Positions 2,283 to 62,904 of a DNA stretch of 62,904 nucleotides are shown here, piece after piece. The notes under the pieces are model-generated. The model saw nothing but the letters and a program-made list of their open reading frames with translations, was not told the DNA's origin and did no database searches. Source of the stretch: a virus; the IMG/VR virus record IMGVR_UViG_3300046536_000196, positions 1 to 62,904 of that record, one strand, 5' to 3'. How positions within the stretch are numbered: position 1 is the first letter of the stretch; every line of letters starts with the position of its first letter. The position numbers and the translations under genes were made by a program.

Positions 2283-3275
2283 TCAATGATCCTGCCTACT
2301 GAAATACACCGTCCGGTGAATGACCTCTGTACTCGCCAGCGTCATCACCAACTCGCACGAGTTCGTCGCGCCATCAGTCAGGTCCAGCCCGCCAATCAGC
2401 AGGATCGCCTTGCCGCCCTGGATCGCTGGCACAGACAGCGCAGTCACGCCGGTCGCGTTTGGCGTTTGCACCGATGCGATCGTGGTGTTGCCGCTCAGTG
2501 CCAGATCGGCGCTGACGTCCAGCGCGAAGAACCTGCGGTCATCCGGGTCCTTGCCGAACACGTGCGACCTGTCATCCAGTGCGGTGAGCAGGACCGTGCC
2601 GTCGATGATCTCGCCATTCGCGCACGTCACGCGGAAGGTGAACTGACCGCCAGCCGGGTCGAGCGCGCCGATCTTCGCTACCATCAGCGAGCCCTGAAGC
2701 GCCGGGCCTTCCAGTATCGAGAGGTTTGTGCTTGCGTTGACGATCTCAACAGAAGTCGCCGTGGTCGCACCATCAGCCAGCGGCTTCGTAAAGTCTCCGA
2801 CGATGTAGACCTGGTCGTTGATGCCCTTCGTGAGCTTGACCGGGCCGGTGTCGGTGAATACGGCGACACGCGGGTGGCCGACAAAGTAAGCGGTGCGCGA
2901 TGCGGGAACGGCGATGTTGCTCGTACCGGTCTGCGCGTTGCCCGGCGTGACCGTTGCCGCCCCGGTGCCGCTCGTGTTGGCTTGCGTGCTGCTTGCGGCA
3001 GTCTCGTTGACCGTGACCGGAACGTAAGTCGCCGGCGTGACGGTCGCGGCGGCGGTCGAACTGGTGTTGGCCTGGGTGCTGTTGGCGGCCGTCTCGTTCA
3101 CGGCTTTCGGGCCGCCGGCGCCCGGCGTGACAGTCGCGGCGCCGGTGCTGCTCGCGTTGGCCTGAATAGTCGTGGTTCCGGCCATGGCCTCGACGACGCC
3201 GGCCGGCATTGTTGGTGCCGCCAGCACGATAGCCGCGCCAATGGCGGCGGCCCCGATTGGACGTAGGCCGAGCAT
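2283..3275 (-). CDS. Putative virion/tail-fibre protein with threonine-rich repeats
   Basis: 330 aa. The N-terminus is hydrophobic and Ala-rich (residues 5-35). Residues about 33-115 hold three imperfect copies of a Thr/Ser/Ala repeat of the form VNETAASSTQANTSGTG-AATVTP. The remaining 210 residues are beta-rich with no recognised domain (HVFGKDPDDRRFFALDVSADL). The same repeat occurs once in the next protein upstream, the tailspike, so both may be virion proteins sharing a linker module. The start overlaps the tailspike stop. Alternatives are a decoration protein or a second fibre. Confidence 0.65.
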   Translation of the reverse strand: MLGLRPIGAAAIGAAIVLAAPTMPAGVVEAMAGTTTIQANASSTGAATVTPGAGGPKAVNETAANSTQANTSSTAAATVTPATYVPVTVNETAASSTQANTSGTGAATVTPGNAQTGTSNIAVPASRTAYFVGHPRVAVFTDTGPVKLTKGINDQVYIVGDFTKPLADGATTATSVEIVNASTNLSILEGPALQGSLMVAKIGALDPAGGQFTFRVTCANGEIIDGTVLLTALDDRSHVFGKDPDDRRFFALDVSADLALSGNTTIASVQTPNATGVTALSVPAIQGGKAILLIGGLDLTDGATNSCELVMTLASTEVIHRTVYFSRQDH

Positions 3276-5404
3276 CAGTTCGCCCCGTCACCGAGGAAAA
3301 TCTTGTAATGCGCGCCGCCGGTGTCGTTCGTGACGAACGAGCCGGGGGTGGACGATCCCTGCACTACAATGCGCGCGTGGCTGATACCGATTTTCCGGCT
3401 GCCGCTCTGGTAGTTGAAGTCGGATTGATGCGAGAAGTTCGTGCCCGTATTGTGCTCGGTGTCGTACAGCGTGACCTGCAGCGCGTGGTCACCCTGCATC
3501 ACGAACGAGTTTTGCGTCCATTCGGCCAGGTAGTGGTGGATGCTCGACGCGTGGTTCGCGCCCTTCAGCACCACGCCGTTGACGTTGCCGACACTCTGGA
3601 GCTTCCGAATGTCGGTGTGCTCGTTCATAACCACGGCGGTGTTGTAGCCGCTCACCAGGACGAAACCGATCTGCAGCAGCGCGTGGTTGTCGATCGGCGG
3701 CGTAATGATGCCGCAGCTGCCGGTCGTCGGCATGACCATGTCCTGCAGCCCGCGCGACACGTCGATGCGCACCTGGTCGATCAACGGCAACTGAGAGGCG
3801 AACTGGAAATTAAACGCGCTCATCGAATTGGCCGCGCCGCTCTGGTTCGCGCGCGTGCGGACGCACAGATTCGTGAAACTGGCGTTCAGGTAGCTCCACA
3901 GGCCGTAAGCCGCATCACCGGGGTTGCCTTGCTCGAAACCGAACACGGCCGGATTGTTGTTAGCGCCCTGGATGGTCGACTCGAAAATCACGCCGTTCAT
4001 CGTCGGCGGAACGTTCCACAGCCCCTGCTGCTCGGCGTTGGGCATGCCGCGGCCGATGAACCGAACGGACCGCCCCGGGTTGGACGCGCCGGTCTGCGGG
4101 AAATAGATTTGGCAGTTGCCCGAGCCGACCAGCGGCCCGCTGATCTGATAGCGGCCGACGTCGCAAACAATGTCGCTGATGCCGGAATTGATCGCTTCGA
4201 GGATGGCTGTCTGGACGGCGGTAGTGGAATCCTTGGCGAAGGTCTTGTCGGCGCCGAACTTGCGCAGGTCGAGTTGACTTTCCACGACGAACACGTTAAA
4301 GAGCGACGCCGGGATATCGACGTAAATCGTCACCGGCCCCGAGAACGTAACCGGATCGCCATTGTTCGAGCTGTTGAGCACCACGTCGCGCGTGAGCGTG
4401 TTGGCGTTCGTGTAGGTGGCGGTGCCGCCCTCGACGTTGCCGTGCGTGTCCTTGGCGACGTAGGGAATCAGCGATTCGCCCACGGTGTAGCCGGACTGCG
4501 AGAAATTCGCATAGCCGACGTTGGTCGAGTTCGACAGGATGAAAGACGCCGTGCCTACTGCAGCAGCCGAGTCCATCACGTTGTCGCGGAAATTGTAGAT
4601 CGAGCGCCCGGCCTTTTTCATGCCGAACGCGATGGTCGGGGCGGGCGCGTTGCCGGCCGGCGTGACCGTTGCCGCCCCGGTGCCGCTCGTGTTGGCTTGC
4701 GTGTTGCTTGCGGCGGTCTCGTTCACGGTTGCGCCGCCGCCGGTGCCTGCCGGGCCCGAGTAGGTCGAATCGTACTTGAACGCCACGCCGGTGAACGCCA
4801 CTGTTGCGGCGGTCGTCCACGATGCAACCGGCGTGGCGTTTGAAATCGTCGCCTTGGTGGTCTGCACCACGTAGTTGAGCGCCGAGCCGTAATGGTCGCT
4901 CGAGCCCATATTGACGAAATCAACCGCCGATAAACCGCCCTGCACCTGGAAATTCGATACGGTCGGATTGAACGCCATGCCTGACAGGACCAGGCTGTTG
5001 TCGTTCGACGGCGTGAGCGAAGCTGCGCCAATGCCGATCTGCGTAGCGTTGCCGCCCGCGCCGTACGTAACGGTCGGGGTGTCGAGCGGATCCGACGCGG
5101 TCAGCACGCCGACGAACGCGCCGACGTCAAACGACGGGAATGCGCCGGTGCCGGAAACGGTGAACGTGTGGCCGGTGCCGACGATTGGGTTCCACGCGTA
5201 GAAAAGCTGATTGACGACCGGGTTACTCGCCTGCGCGGTCAGCGGGCGCCAGGTGTTACCCTTGCTGTCCGCGACGGTGACCGCCACGCCCTGCTGATAG
5301 GCGACGTTCAAGACCAGCAACGATGCGCCGGTCGTGTCGATGCCGGCCGAGGTCGCGCCATCCTTGCCCGAGCCGAATGTGTGCCGCAGCAGCGAAATTG
5401 TCAT
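3275..5404 (-). CDS. Tailspike/tail fibre with pectate-lyase-like beta-helix
   Basis: 709 aa. Residues 1-215 form a beta-rich head (TISLLRHTFGSGKDGATSAG). A Thr-rich linker with the VNETAASNTQANTSGTG repeat follows at about 225-250. Residues about 370-700 start with LDLRKFGADKTFAKDSTTAVQ and continue as a right-handed beta-helix typical of pectate-lyase-fold tailspikes. Such proteins bind, and often degrade, surface polysaccharide, so this is probably the host-range determinant. Catalytic residues cannot be assigned by eye. It lies at the start of the late operon, far from the tail module, an unusual place for a spike. Confidence 0.75.
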   Translation of the reverse strand: MTISLLRHTFGSGKDGATSAGIDTTGASLLVLNVAYQQGVAVTVADSKGNTWRPLTAQASNPVVNQLFYAWNPIVGTGHTFTVSGTGAFPSFDVGAFVGVLTASDPLDTPTVTYGAGGNATQIGIGAASLTPSNDNSLVLSGMAFNPTVSNFQVQGGLSAVDFVNMGSSDHYGSALNYVVQTTKATISNATPVASWTTAATVAFTGVAFKYDSTYSGPAGTGGGATVNETAASNTQANTSGTGAATVTPAGNAPAPTIAFGMKKAGRSIYNFRDNVMDSAAAVGTASFILSNSTNVGYANFSQSGYTVGESLIPYVAKDTHGNVEGGTATYTNANTLTRDVVLNSSNNGDPVTFSGPVTIYVDIPASLFNVFVVESQLDLRKFGADKTFAKDSTTAVQTAILEAINSGISDIVCDVGRYQISGPLVGSGNCQIYFPQTGASNPGRSVRFIGRGMPNAEQQGLWNVPPTMNGVIFESTIQGANNNPAVFGFEQGNPGDAAYGLWSYLNASFTNLCVRTRANQSGAANSMSAFNFQFASQLPLIDQVRIDVSRGLQDMVMPTTGSCGIITPPIDNHALLQIGFVLVSGYNTAVVMNEHTDIRKLQSVGNVNGVVLKGANHASSIHHYLAEWTQNSFVMQGDHALQVTLYDTEHNTGTNFSHQSDFNYQSGSRKIGISHARIVVQGSSTPGSFVTNDTGGAHYKIFLGDGAN

Positions 5405-6599: not shown

Positions 6600-6636
6600 C
6601 GAAGACCAAGAGAGACGGCTTGGTGGAGACTGGTTG

Positions 6637-6725
6637 TGGGTGAGGAAGGAATTGAACCTCCACCGCTTCGTGAGCACTACGGATTTACAGTCCGCGCCGA
6701 CCTAACCAATATTCGGCTCTCACCC
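6637..6725 (-). tRNA. tRNA-Tyr (GUA)
   Basis: On the minus strand the acceptor arms GGGTGAG (6725-6719) and CTCACCC (6644-6638) pair. The anticodon arm reads GGACT-GTA-AATCC, giving anticodon GTA (Tyr). A long variable arm (TAGTGCTCACGAAGCGG region) fits a class II tRNA, and the T-arm GGAGGTTCAATTCC is canonical. CCA is not encoded (discriminator A, then CAA). It probably supplements host Tyr decoding; it is followed by a strong terminator. Confidence 0.9.
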
Positions 6726-34197: not shown

Positions 34198-34246
<49 letters not shown>

Positions 34247-34372
34247 ATTCTGTTGCGTTCCAGAACGTTCCGCAACGTCCCATAAGGATTGAAATTCTCA
34301 GAAAATTCAGTCACTTATCTTTCGTCATTGTCCCACAGCATTCCAAGCTGTACCATACGAGCCAACGAATCT

Positions 34373-50777: not shown

Positions 50778-51566
50778 CTAGGTGACGTGTACCCAGGCTG
50801 TGCGCTTGATTACACGACTTATTAGGCCCTCGCTTACGCCGTATTCTTCGGACAGTGCGCGTATTGACTTGGCGCTTGATCGAATGCGCTGGACCTTTTC
50901 GTCATCCAGCTTTGCAAGGGGGTGAGCCGTGCCTTTTACCCGGTTCCCATTGTCGATCCGCCCATTTGAGTAGGCCGCCTGCGTCAGGTCTAGGTGCCTC
51001 CACTCTTCGTTCCTGTGTATCAGGCTAACTTGACTCTGCGATATTCCATAGTCTTGCGCAATCACCCACTGCGGGCGCTTATCAAGACGTATTGCGGCGA
51101 CTTGCGCCTCCGTGAGCTTCGTGCTTGAAAAGTCCGAGCCTTTCGATTGCCTATTCTTGCTCAGTTTGTCCAGCATGTTGTCCGCGTTGGTCCCGATGAA
51201 CAAGTGGTCTGGATTGATGCATGCAGGGGTATCACAACGATGGCACACATGCATGCCGTCAGGTATTGCTCCATGAGCGACTGCGTAAGCCAATCGGTGC
51301 GCCAAGAATACCTTCCCGTCCACTCCAAGCCTGCCATATCCAGACTTGTTCGTACTTGCGGTCCACAGCCAGCATCCCGTGGCGGCATCTACTTTGGAGA
51401 AGTGTTCCAGACGCTGACTTAGGGTCATGTGTCCGGTGTATAGACTTTCCGAAAAAGACCCCGATTTTCGCGCCTGCTCGTAATGCGTACTGCACAATCC
51501 GCGCGCTTGGACCTTCTTGCCGCAGATGGAGCATTCCTTCGGGTATGGTATTCTTGCATCAGCCAT
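50778..51566 (-). CDS. HNH homing endonuclease-like protein
   Basis: 262 aa. The N-terminus has two Cys pairs (CSICGKKVQARGLCSTH). HNH core: GRLGVDGKVFLAHRLAYAVA, GMHVCHRCDTPACINPDHLF. The C-terminus carries repeated helix-turn-helix units (LDKRPQWVIAQDYGISQSQV, SIRALSEEYGVSEGLISRVI), as in phage homing endonucleases. It starts MADA and is preceded by an 87-bp leader identical to the one before the GIY-YIG gene at 59506. It sits between tail tube and tail chaperone genes. Confidence 0.85.
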   Translation of the reverse strand: MADARIPYPKECSICGKKVQARGLCSTHYEQARKSGSFSESLYTGHMTLSQRLEHFSKVDAATGCWLWTASTNKSGYGRLGVDGKVFLAHRLAYAVAHGAIPDGMHVCHRCDTPACINPDHLFIGTNADNMLDKLSKNRQSKGSDFSSTKLTEAQVAAIRLDKRPQWVIAQDYGISQSQVSLIHRNEEWRHLDLTQAAYSNGRIDNGNRVKGTAHPLAKLDDEKVQRIRSSAKSIRALSEEYGVSEGLISRVIKRTAWVHVT

Positions 51567-51645
51567 GATGACCTCTCAGACAGGTTGTTTGGTTAGAGCT
51601 CGCTTCGTGTTGGTAGCACTTAGCGGGCTCGTCTATTTTACGCCT
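51559..51645 (-). repeat. 87-bp leader repeat, copy A
   Basis: Identical over 87 bp to 59499-59585. On the minus strand it begins 5 bp after the tail tube stop region and runs into the first codons of the HNH gene. It holds a hairpin GAGC...GCTC (51630-51596) with inner helices GC/GC and GUG/CAC, and a second small stem in which ACCU pairs with AGGU next to the GAGAGG ribosome site. It may control translation of the homing gene. Confidence 0.85.
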
Positions 51646-58483: not shown

Positions 58484-59506
58484 TCAACTTGAGGGAGCGG
58501 GCACCTCAGCGTTACTAGCCTTCGCCAACAAGGCTCTTGCAACTCGCTTTTTTGCCGCTGCCGACATCCGAGCCCTCTGCTCAGCGGTCCGCTTCTGGCC
58601 GATTCTCTTCGCCGTGGCGCGCTCCACTGCTTCACGCGGCATCACCCTGCCAATCCGAGGATCAACGTACCCAGGTTGCGCGATAGCTGCTGCATGAGCG
58701 GCTGATATCTTCCGCTTGGTCTCTTCGCTAATGGTCTTGCCAGTGTTTATCGCCGACAGCAGGGCTTTTGTCGTGTCTGGAGTTACGTAACCTTTGCGCG
58801 CACGTGATATTTTTTCCGCACGAGCGCTCCAATCTGAGCGGATTGGCTTGATCCTCCCTGCCTTCACCCATCTTAAATATGTGCTAGAGCCTATCCCTGC
58901 TAGACGGCAAATTTCAAGCAGCGGCAGGGACTCGTCCCTTACCGATTCGAACCTCTTGATCCGCTCGAGAGTTTGCTCCTCGCGCCTAGCGGCGACAGCT
59001 AGGGCAGCGGCAGTTTTTGGAGCGCCAGCCCTAGCCTTTGCTTTTTCCGAGATTCTCTCCCGTGTTTCATCGGAGCAGATTCGCCCCATGAGGGAAGCTG
59101 ATCTCTTTGCATTTTGCTCTGGTGTTGACCCCCTTCCAAGGCGCGCATTTCGCATCTTTAGACGGGACTCTGGTGAGGTTTTTACACCGAGCCTACTGCC
59201 GGCTTTGGCACATATGTTGAGCCCGCTCGGTCCGCACGCGCCAAGCGAATCTATCCAATGTTGTTCGCGTTGCAGCAGTAAGGATTTTTCTGGAACTAGT
59301 TCGACAATCTCTAGCGCAAATGCAGCTTCGCCATATTTGCTCCACGACCTCTGTAATTTCTGCGAGTGATGCTCACCCTTCCGCAGCTCTCGCAAGTGAT
59401 TTTCCCATCTCTTCTTCAGATTGACGGCGCTGCCAACGTATATCTTGCCGTTGACCGTATTTCGAATTTGATAGATGCCGGATTGCGCTAGAATAGCGTC
59501 AGCCAT
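58484..59506 (-). CDS. GIY-YIG homing endonuclease-like protein
   Basis: 340 aa. GIY-YIG domain at 8-95: SGIYQIRNTVNGKIYVGSAV (GIY...YVG), RWENHLRELRKGEHHS (Arg/His) and a Glu in LEIVELVPEKSLLLQ-REQHW. After it come several NUMOD3-type DNA-binding modules (SPESRLKMRNARLGRGSTPE, SEETKRKISAAHAAAIAQPG). It starts MADA and has the same 87-bp leader as the HNH gene at 51566. It sits right after the minor head protein gene. Confidence 0.88.
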   Translation of the reverse strand: MADAILAQSGIYQIRNTVNGKIYVGSAVNLKKRWENHLRELRKGEHHSQKLQRSWSKYGEAAFALEIVELVPEKSLLLQREQHWIDSLGACGPSGLNICAKAGSRLGVKTSPESRLKMRNARLGRGSTPEQNAKRSASLMGRICSDETRERISEKAKARAGAPKTAAALAVAARREEQTLERIKRFESVRDESLPLLEICRLAGIGSSTYLRWVKAGRIKPIRSDWSARAEKISRARKGYVTPDTTKALLSAINTGKTISEETKRKISAAHAAAIAQPGYVDPRIGRVMPREAVERATAKRIGQKRTAEQRARMSAAAKKRVARALLAKASNAEVPAPSS

Positions 59507-59585
59507 GATGACCTCTCAGACAGGTTGTTTGGTTAGAGCTCGCTTCGTGTTGGTAGCACTTAGCGGGCTCGTCTATTTTACGCCT
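59499..59585 (-). repeat. 87-bp leader repeat, copy B
   Basis: Perfect copy of 51559-51645. On the minus strand it begins immediately after the minor head gene stop (TGA then GGCGTAAAATAGACG). It contains the same hairpin (59570-59536) and ribosome site. The two endonucleases behind it are unrelated (HNH and GIY-YIG), so the leader itself appears to be a shared or mobile part. Confidence 0.85.
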
Positions 59586-62179: not shown

Positions 62180-62904
62180 TTAAATGTTCAGCGTGCGCAC
62201 GCCTGCTGTGCGCTTCACGATCGGCCAGCGCTTGACGATGAAGTAGCCGCCCGCATCGTTGGCATGGTCGAAGCCGCCCTTTTTGTCCGGCTCGCCCTTG
62301 TCGTCGTACACCTGGCGCTCAAGGCACAACGTGTATTTCTGACACTTATTCGTGTTGACTAGGAATCGGCGCTCGTCGTACGTGTTGCACAGCATCGCGT
62401 TGACACTGTTGATGCGGTCCTTCACGCCCGGATTCGCGCTGTCCACGACGACCGTAAAGTCCGCCTTACGCAGCAGCGACAAGTCGGACTCGCTCGCATT
62501 GCTACTCTTTCGGTTCTGCCCTGAGGCATCCGGATAAACCGATACGGTGTGGCTGGCGAACTTCGCCTTGATCTTCTCGATCATTGCCGGCGTATCAAAC
62601 ACCTCCGTGAATTCATCCACTGCACGCGGAAGATCGTCGCGGATCACGAAGACCACTGCGGCCATCTTGCCCACGTTGAAGTCCATGCCGATGTGGAGCG
62701 CATCGCCCTTGCGCACAATGTCGTCAGTGTGATTCCGCCGACGATCAAAGCAGTAATAGATGACGCCCTGGTAGTTCTCGAAGCTCGCCAGATACTCTTG
62801 GCGGAACGTGCGCGGGTCCATCTTCCGGCGCGCAGCCTCAATTTCTTCCGCCGGGACGTTGCCGCCATCAACCGACGTGTACAGCCAGCTTTTATGGTCA
62901 GGCT
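62180..62904 (-). CDS. terL: Terminase large subunit, C-terminal nuclease part (start at 713)
   Basis: Continuation of the terL frame that starts at 713. It holds the RNase H-like nuclease with Asp in LHIGMDFNVGK (D270 of the joined protein), SVYPDASG (D321) and FDHANDAGGYF (D408/D412). Bases 62778-62904 are the duplicated end of the contig, so codons 182-223 appear twice in the window. It ends with the stop at 62180, followed by the portal gene. Confidence 0.95.
   Translation of the reverse strand, partial: PDHKSWLYTSVDGGNVPAEEIEAARRKMDPRTFRQEYLASFENYQGVIYYCFDRRRNHTDDIVRKGDALHIGMDFNVGKMAAVVFVIRDDLPRAVDEFTEVFDTPAMIEKIKAKFASHTVSVYPDASGQNRKSSNASESDLSLLRKADFTVVVDSANPGVKDRINSVNAMLCNTYDERRFLVNTNKCQKYTLCLERQVYDDKGEPDKKGGFDHANDAGGYFIVKRWPIVKRTAGVRTLNI
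62778..62904. repeat. Terminal direct repeat (contig ends overlap)
   Basis: 127 bp identical to bases 1-127. It lies inside terL and joins the frame perfectly, so it is best explained as assembly overlap of a circular or circularly permuted genome; 127 is a common assembler k-mer length. It is not likely a true short terminal repeat, because terL continues through it. Confidence 0.9.

Follow-up and report, generated by a model that had tools for sequence, protein, structure and literature searches.

The window analysed here is the whole of IMG/VR virus record IMGVR_UViG_3300046536_000196, a stretch of 62,904 nucleotides. It carries two homing-type endonuclease genes with the domains expected of free-standing homing cassettes, HNH_3 in one and GIY-YIG with NUMOD3 in the other (Table 1). 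As the original prediction had stated, both genes start within a perfect 87-bp repeat. The two copies are 100% identical over 87 bp and 99% over 90 bp, and identity collapses beyond them to 17% over the upstream 60 nt and 27% over the downstream 60 nt. A repeat of this kind is far beyond chance, and neither a DNA search nor a model search found a third copy in the whole record. The HNH-side copy begins 5 nt past the TGA of a Phage_tube_2 (tail-tube) gene, and the first base of the GIY-YIG-side copy is the last base of the preceding gene's TGA. The gene before the GIY-YIG-side copy has a weak Phage_Mu_F match of 21.8 bits against a cut-off of 29.6. Both cassettes are also present in IMGVR_UViG_3300046535_000089 (L001, L003), a record that is not independent of the window. 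Elsewhere in the record, the ends are formed by a 127-bp direct repeat (1-127 and 62778-62904), so that a complete phage genome of ~62.8 kb, either circular or terminally redundant, is probable. It also holds a tRNA-Tyr gene at 6636-6725 (ARAGORN), a borderline Rfam tRNA match at 34201-34272 without ARAGORN support, and four imperfect 73-nt repeats at 2942-3194 and 4657-4729, which are 62-95% alike and three of which are spaced 90 nt.

Table 1. Features of the two repeat copies and their nuclease genes (positions in the window; R1 is the covariance model described in the text)
Feature	Position	Strand	Basis
Repeat copy 1: HNH mRNA leader with SD and initial codons	51559..51645	-	sequence comparison
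Repeat copy 2: GIY-YIG mRNA leader with SD and initial codons	59499..59585	-	sequence comparison
HNH homing-type endonuclease, 262 aa (HNH_3, zf-His_Me_endon)	50778..51566	-	HNH_3 E 4.4e-12
GIY-YIG homing-type endonuclease, 340 aa (GIY-YIG, NUMOD3)	58484..59506	-	E 5.9e-15
Predicted antisense RNA, HNH-side copy	51561..51639	+	R1 73.2 bits, E 5.9e-14 (window sequence in R1 training set); fold z -3.4
Predicted antisense RNA, GIY-YIG-side copy	59501..59579	+	R1 73.2 bits, E 5.9e-14 (window sequence in R1 training set); repeat identical
Predicted 5' hairpin of the antisense RNA, facing SD and start codon	51561..51594	+	fold, SD-hairpin test
Predicted terminator hairpin and U-rich tail of the antisense RNA	51596..51639	+	fold, RNAalifold, covariation, tail statistics
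Possible antisense promoter, HNH copy: extended -10 TGgTATTCT	51546..51554	+	read from sequence
Possible antisense -10 TAGAAT (5/6), GIY-YIG copy	59489..59494	+	read from sequence
Possible sense -10 TAAAAT, HNH gene	51635..51640	-	same bases as antisense U-tail
Possible sense -10, GIY-YIG gene, equivalent site	59575-59580	-	same position as HNH-side TAAAAT

Outside the window, the repeat matches a phage-like plasmid of Pusillimonas sp. T7-7 (NC_015459.1; L014, L126). This plasmid holds two elements with different loops, GTGCTACCAACAC in front of an HNH-like gene and GGACGGCAATCC in front of a gene for a GIY-YIG protein (31.4 bits). The former gene, at L014, lies between head-tail genes, is annotated as hypothetical, and appears HNH-like by eye without a Pfam match. 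The 3' part of the repeat further matches plasmids of Aeromonas, Erwinia, and Pantoea (L015-L018), in which the element precedes small genes or unannotated frames with R1 scores of 22-32 bits. The matches of the Pusillimonas copy include SymE-annotated genes, and this copy weakly matches 29 phage records, two of which (E 0.7 and E 9) were later scored by R1. A blastn search of the repeat against 50,697 phage records returned one match only (E 8), and that of another viral element gave two weak matches in named phages. Seven of the 11 stretches from a first pattern search (L006-L010, L012, and L013) look like chance matches. The pattern of the loop plus CTAACC occurs in 104 stretches of viral contigs (107 matches, 93 distinct, in the pooled loci) and in at least 119 stretches of bacterial genomes, and the second-loop pattern in 56 stretches of viral contigs. 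The bacterial occurrences include Proteobacteria, Cyanobacteria, Actinobacteria, and Chloroflexi, some of them metagenome bins. Among 120 Burkholderiales genomes, one of which had been picked for having the pattern, R1 matches eight at E <= 1e-4; the Burkholderiales elements (L306, L308-L319) display many different loops, and several precede genes that are SymE-like by eye. In the 103-kb contig IMGVR_UViG_643692018_000001 (L030, L077), a block of at least 2.2 kb containing the element is present twice in nearly identical form, and the gene after the element in L030 carries NUMOD4.

For the element statistics, 47 duplicates and two elements near contig ends were removed, leaving 235 elements, which were deduplicated by sequence without tree weighting, and kinship inflates the counts derived from them. 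Two elements from plasmid records are excluded from the group counts. The start-codon statistics cover 202 elements, after removal of 33 of the 235 that have no called start and some of which are probably chance matches.

The stems of these elements reveal which strand carries the selected fold. Among mismatches flanked by Watson-Crick pairs in the deduplicated, pattern-selected elements, C·A on the leader strand outnumbers G·U on that strand by 180 to 12. The ratio is similar in each group, at 54:3, 96:6, and 30:3 for 83 viral loop-A, 103 genome loop-A, and 47 viral loop-B elements, and a count on 79 elements gave 51 C·A and 3 G·U. Since a C·A on the leader strand is a G·U on the opposite strand, this asymmetry means that selection keeps the fold of the antisense RNA. 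The folding energy is likewise lower on the antisense strand in 163 of 166 elements, with a mean difference of -12.1 kcal/mol. In the window, none of 200 shuffles folds as well as the antisense RNA (z -3.4), whereas 40 of 200 do so for the leader strand (z -0.85). The conserved fold thus belongs to the strand opposite the leader, so that the RNA is most likely a cis-antisense RNA rather than a leader switch. The control RNA put forward in the original prediction is therefore upheld as structured and probably regulatory, but it would lie on the other strand. The strand tests also disfavour a riboswitch or other leader-strand RNA, and no Rfam family reaches its cut-off in the repeat or in 12 loci with relatives.

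The most serious competing explanation is that the leader itself is a functional 5' UTR hairpin, which hides the ribosome site and times translation in the manner of T4 I-TevI, segB, and Aeh1 mobE, with no antisense RNA involved. The leader can indeed fold with the AGGU of the SD paired; a hairpin with the previously proposed UAA/GAA loop and an ACCU/AGGU stem over the SD can form. Passages of PMC2988022 establish ribosome-site hairpins for T-even homing genes and describe translation of T4-type genes (I-TevI, segB, mobE) as held down by them. Those hairpins, as described there, act in cis within the mRNA, whereas the structure selected here lies on the antisense strand. With a leader fold that hardly beats shuffles, a G·U asymmetry directed against the leader strand, and a -10-like box at a fixed opposite-strand site in one third of the elements (see below), we regard this explanation as unlikely. 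The UAA/GAA internal loop was also considered as the key motif and rejected, since inspection by eye shows it in the window and in only a few relatives, whereas most of the relatives listed lack it.

The antisense fold was further assessed by covariation. RNAalifold on 43 antisense sequences, including SymR, yielded 17 pairs, eight of them with double changes, and the covariance model R1 was built from these 43 sequences, among which SymR and the window are included. When the search was carried beyond the window to 80 of the 119 genome loci, R1 gave 78 matches at E <= 0.01 in 76 loci, none of them from the training set, and named phages were matched as well. The four loci without an R1 match are L190, L221, L247, and L249. 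In the alignment of the 78 copies, which was fitted to R1 and so favours its structure, 98.6% of cells pair compared with 79.4% in shuffles, and double-change cells number 261 compared with 87.3. The covariation score is 0.512, against 0.142 for shuffled and at most 0.147 for slid versions. Pairs with a double change (7) are no more numerous than in shuffles (7.1), and further pair types (34 vs 32.3) hardly more so. Because the sets were chosen by the exact loop and CTAACC, those bases are conserved by construction; the covariation and G·U counts rest on positions outside them. The conserved antisense-strand fold, a 5' hairpin followed by a UUGG-loop terminator hairpin, is that of a SymR-type layout.

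In the window, the R1 matches on both copies span the SD and the ATG, a feature of the sequence with a geometry like that of the annotated symR. The predicted terminator hairpin proper extends over 51596-51630, with the tip GUGUUGGUAGCAC at 51607-51619. Its UUGG is a U-turn (YUNR) loop, typical of antisense RNAs. The candidate antisense -10 of the HNH copy matches the hexamer at 4/6 positions, lies 6 nt before the predicted start at 51561, and has an offset of 12 from the start codon. The TAGAAT of the GIY-YIG copy lies 6 nt before the predicted start at 59501, also at offset 12, as do the -10 boxes of relatives; upstream of it, TTGATA is found at 59468-59473 with a spacer of 15. A consensus scan that demanded an unbroken stem and 16-18 nt spacing detected no promoter or terminator at either copy on either strand.

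These signals recur among the relatives. An antisense -10 of at least 5/6 is located at offset 12 or 13 in the gene in 70 of 202 elements and is absent there in the other 132, and any other offset is used by at most five. Within offsets 8-16, such boxes are present in 21/76, 37/83, and 17/41 elements by group, compared with 3.2, 3.3, and 1.4 in shuffles. The box overlaps nuclease codons, such as A-I-L of MADAIL, and its reading as codons probably explains part of the shared protein start. The shared MADA start probably represents the pairing partner of CUAACC together with the antisense promoter region. Past the terminator hairpin, 60% of 233 elements have at least five A in 8 nt of the leader strand, compared with 19% in an upstream control and 43% when the same stretch is shuffled. 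At -21 to -19 from the loop, the same 233 elements give 37 leader-strand -10 matches, with no more than four at other positions; as this is the U-tail site, the same bases may double as a sense promoter. A hairpin flanking the SD with at least five Watson-Crick pairs occurs in 84 of 166 elements (8.4 in shuffles), and one with at least seven pairs, antisense G·U allowed, in 72 of the 166 (8.2 in shuffles). Under lax rules, the elements (155 of 166) are hardly separated from shuffles (137).

The proteins encoded behind the element were classified by Pfam, with elements lacking a called start or with products shorter than 35 aa omitted (72/83, 41/47, and 75/103 kept). Among the 72 viral loop-A proteins, HNH_3 was found in ten, HNH in eight, and GIY-YIG in three at E <= 0.001, one of the last being the window phage's own. 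Approximately 21 of the 72 therefore possess a homing-type nuclease, a figure based on per-protein tables in which no protein falls into two of the three families and outside which one HNH_3 protein stands; one further protein has NUMOD4 only. KilA-N, Phage_pRha, Phage_integrase, and SymE_toxin are represented by one protein each. The 41 viral loop-B proteins gave five HNH_3, five HNH, and four GIY-YIG domain matches, which may overlap, and the 75 proteins from bacterial loci include nine SymE, two HNH, two HNH_5, and one HNH_3. A leader and gene piece from a viral contig (L034) matches 122 of 5426 E. coli genomes, none over more than 80% of its length, and eight of the 12 among the matches listed are annotated as host cell division inhibitor Icd-like protein. 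Since Icd-like genes carry the element, the C4 antisense RNA of P1/P7 was considered; Rfam did not find it in 12 loci with relatives. The expectation that the element precedes homing endonucleases of different families is thus borne out by HNH and GIY-YIG carriers elsewhere, but the tie to homing genes is not exclusive. Its presence before homing, SymE, Icd-like, KilA-N, Rha, and integrase genes indicates an element common to many kinds of mobile or toxic genes.

This distribution also bears on the possibility that the repeat has no regulatory meaning and simply reflects a recent conversion or duplication event in this phage. In favour of such an event, the two copies match at 100% although the element varies among relatives elsewhere, and their identity ends abruptly on both sides. 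Conversion may account for the identity of the two copies, but not for the function of the element. The same architecture and covariation before HNH, GIY-YIG, and other genes in many contigs make it very improbable that conversion is the whole explanation.

Cultured phages also carry the element before homing genes. In Synechococcus phage Yong-M3-232, it precedes an HNH gene (R1 54.9 bits; Pfam HNH 45.3 bits), and in Gordonia phage ODay, it precedes a gene annotated as GIY-YIG (R1 37.4 bits), whose Pfam GIY-YIG score of 21.9 bits is just below the cut-off of 22.6; both elements are outside the training set. In Sulfitobacter phage phiGT1, the element (R1 53.3 bits) stands before an HNH_3 gene. 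Ten homologues of the window nucleases from named phages were inspected, taken from the best rows of the 429 and 1652 records matching the two nucleases. No R1 element was found at nine of them, phiGT1 being the sole carrier; most homing genes sampled are without the element. The start that the element implies conflicts with the annotated HNH starts in phiGT1 (L329:1168-1734) and Yong-M3-232 (L302:1386-2204), which are probably misannotated.

The phiGT1 element and its HNH_3 gene together form a 669-bp segment, at about L329:1067-1735 to within a base or so, located between two neighbouring genes, after the stop of the first and before the start of the second. In pCB2047-C, which is ~73% identical to phiGT1 over the flanks, the junction is uninterrupted and the segment is missing. 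The simplest reading is that the brake and the nuclease were inserted into phiGT1 as one cassette, with loss from pCB2047-C as the alternative. To this extent, the suggested mobility of the element gains support from one phage pair, in which it shares a presence/absence segment with the HNH gene. The phiGT1 element is found on the 5' side of the additional segment, and each repeat copy in the window marks the left edge of its cassette, as would a DNA element that spreads homing cassettes as a recombination or recognition site, its palindromic stem serving as a protein site. However, such a site would need neither a G·U preference on one strand nor a promoter box at a constant distance into the gene behind it, and the element precedes SymE genes as well; we give this possibility as little weight as conversion.

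The antisense reading finds its closest counterpart in SymR/symE of E. coli (RF01809). According to passages of PMC1891008, symR encodes a 77-nt RNA from a promoter within the symE ORF, and changing CATTCT to CACTCC destroys its -10, with loss of the RNA. The same passages, by Kawano and colleagues, report that SymR represses symE in trans too and that its level is ~10-fold that of symE mRNA (PMC1891008). As predicted for the window, the SymR antisense RNA starts at the start codon of its target; symR is annotated opposite the first symE codons, with the box at offset 13. The symR promoter, within the ORF, has a TAGAAT box that reads CATTCTA on the coding strand, like the candidate box of the GIY-YIG copy. 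The 5' hairpins start with AGUCAU/AGCCAU (AGUCAU in SymR), and both second hairpins carry a GUGUUGG tip, the full tip being GUGUUGGCGCAC in SymR. The gap from the box to the RNA start is 7 nt in symR and 6 nt in the window. R1 scores SymR, a member of its training set, at 48.8 bits. The two differ in their stems and in their targets, SymE there and a homing-type endonuclease here.

Rfam gives weak matches on both strands: the antisense side matches PtaRNA1 and SymR, and the leader side matches Plasmid_R1162. RF01809 has no match in the window at E <= 0.001 (family cut-off 61 bits) and scores 28.9 bits on the Pusillimonas copy at L014, below that cut-off. PtaRNA1 (RF01811) scores 19.6 bits on the antisense strand of the window, below its cut-off of 47 bits. 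With R1, two true PtaRNA1 loci reach no more than 10-12 bits (E 0.35 and 0.7), at the matching place, and one of them, L332, has ACCUCUCAGACAGGU of the 5' hairpin in common with the window; the loop and the target of PtaRNA1 are different. The leader-strand consensus of R1162/RSF1010 (RF00043; 17.5 bits against a cut-off of 55 bits) resembles the window in its hairpin, CUAACCA, SD hairpin, and AUGGCU. The target of the R1162 antisense RNA is a plasmid replication gene. Neither the repeat nor the 12 loci with relatives contain an Rfam family at its cut-off, and as the cut-offs of SymR, PtaRNA1, and R1162 are missed, the element is not assigned to those families.

A further phage antisense RNA, CfrI, is not known to be a short start-codon antisense unit carried by a homing gene. 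PMC5931967 links this RNA of cyanophage S-PM2 to a homing endonuclease gene and describes it as a 3' antisense RNA from the psbA region. By title and abstract, the PMC literature yielded no SymR-type antisense RNA tied to homing endonucleases; PMC12707154 contains the words SymR and HNH endonuclease, and phage small RNAs are the topic of PMC12197685. The original prediction knew of no description of such a system; since SymR/symE has this architecture, and PtaRNA1 and the R1162 antisense target have a similar one, it is not wholly new. The element would rather represent SymR-type antisense control placed on homing genes, a known layout in a new target setting.

Taken together, it is highly likely that each repeat is a compact SymR-type sense/antisense control unit carried by homing-endonuclease cassettes. 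The sequences themselves provide the repeat, its two-strand architecture, the strand of the fold, the covariation, the spread among relatives, and the joint presence or absence in one phage pair; transcription, repression, cross-silencing, and purpose would follow by analogy, with the SymR/symE findings of PMC1891008 as the basis of the proposed mechanism. A promoter within the first nuclease codons would give rise to a ~79-nt antisense RNA on the + strand, which would cross the start codon and the ribosome site and end at the terminator hairpin just downstream of the nuclease -10. This RNA may contact the leader through its UUGG-loop hairpin and through the 5' hairpin facing the ribosome site. 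It would then pair fully with the leader, thereby blocking translation. Since the antisense gene resides on the same DNA, the nuclease would be kept low in proportion to copy number, with a burst only when the cassette is new in the cell. As the two copies in the window do not differ, the antisense RNA of one nuclease gene should silence the other as well.

A broader proposal, to which we assign about even chances, is that the element forms one branch of a large and mostly uncatalogued superfamily of portable antisense-RNA safety catches, which in several phyla stand in front of homing nucleases, SymE-type toxins, plasmid genes, and prophage regulators. The loop would serve as the address, such that identical catches, like those in the window, couple genes in one genome, and different loops, like those on the Pusillimonas plasmid, separate them. 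Selfish nucleases that acquire such a catch would be silent where established and active where new.

Phage homing endonucleases are known to be kept in check by the choice of promoter, by autorepression, and by hairpins that form in their mRNA. If the antisense control proposed here is true, some phages would add an antisense RNA in the style of toxin-antitoxin systems within the same homing cassette, which would explain the tolerance of unrelated nucleases in one phage. It would also line up SymR with PtaRNA1 and the R1162 antisense RNA, and the covariance model would find such brakes, along with likely homing-gene start codons, in phage genomes.
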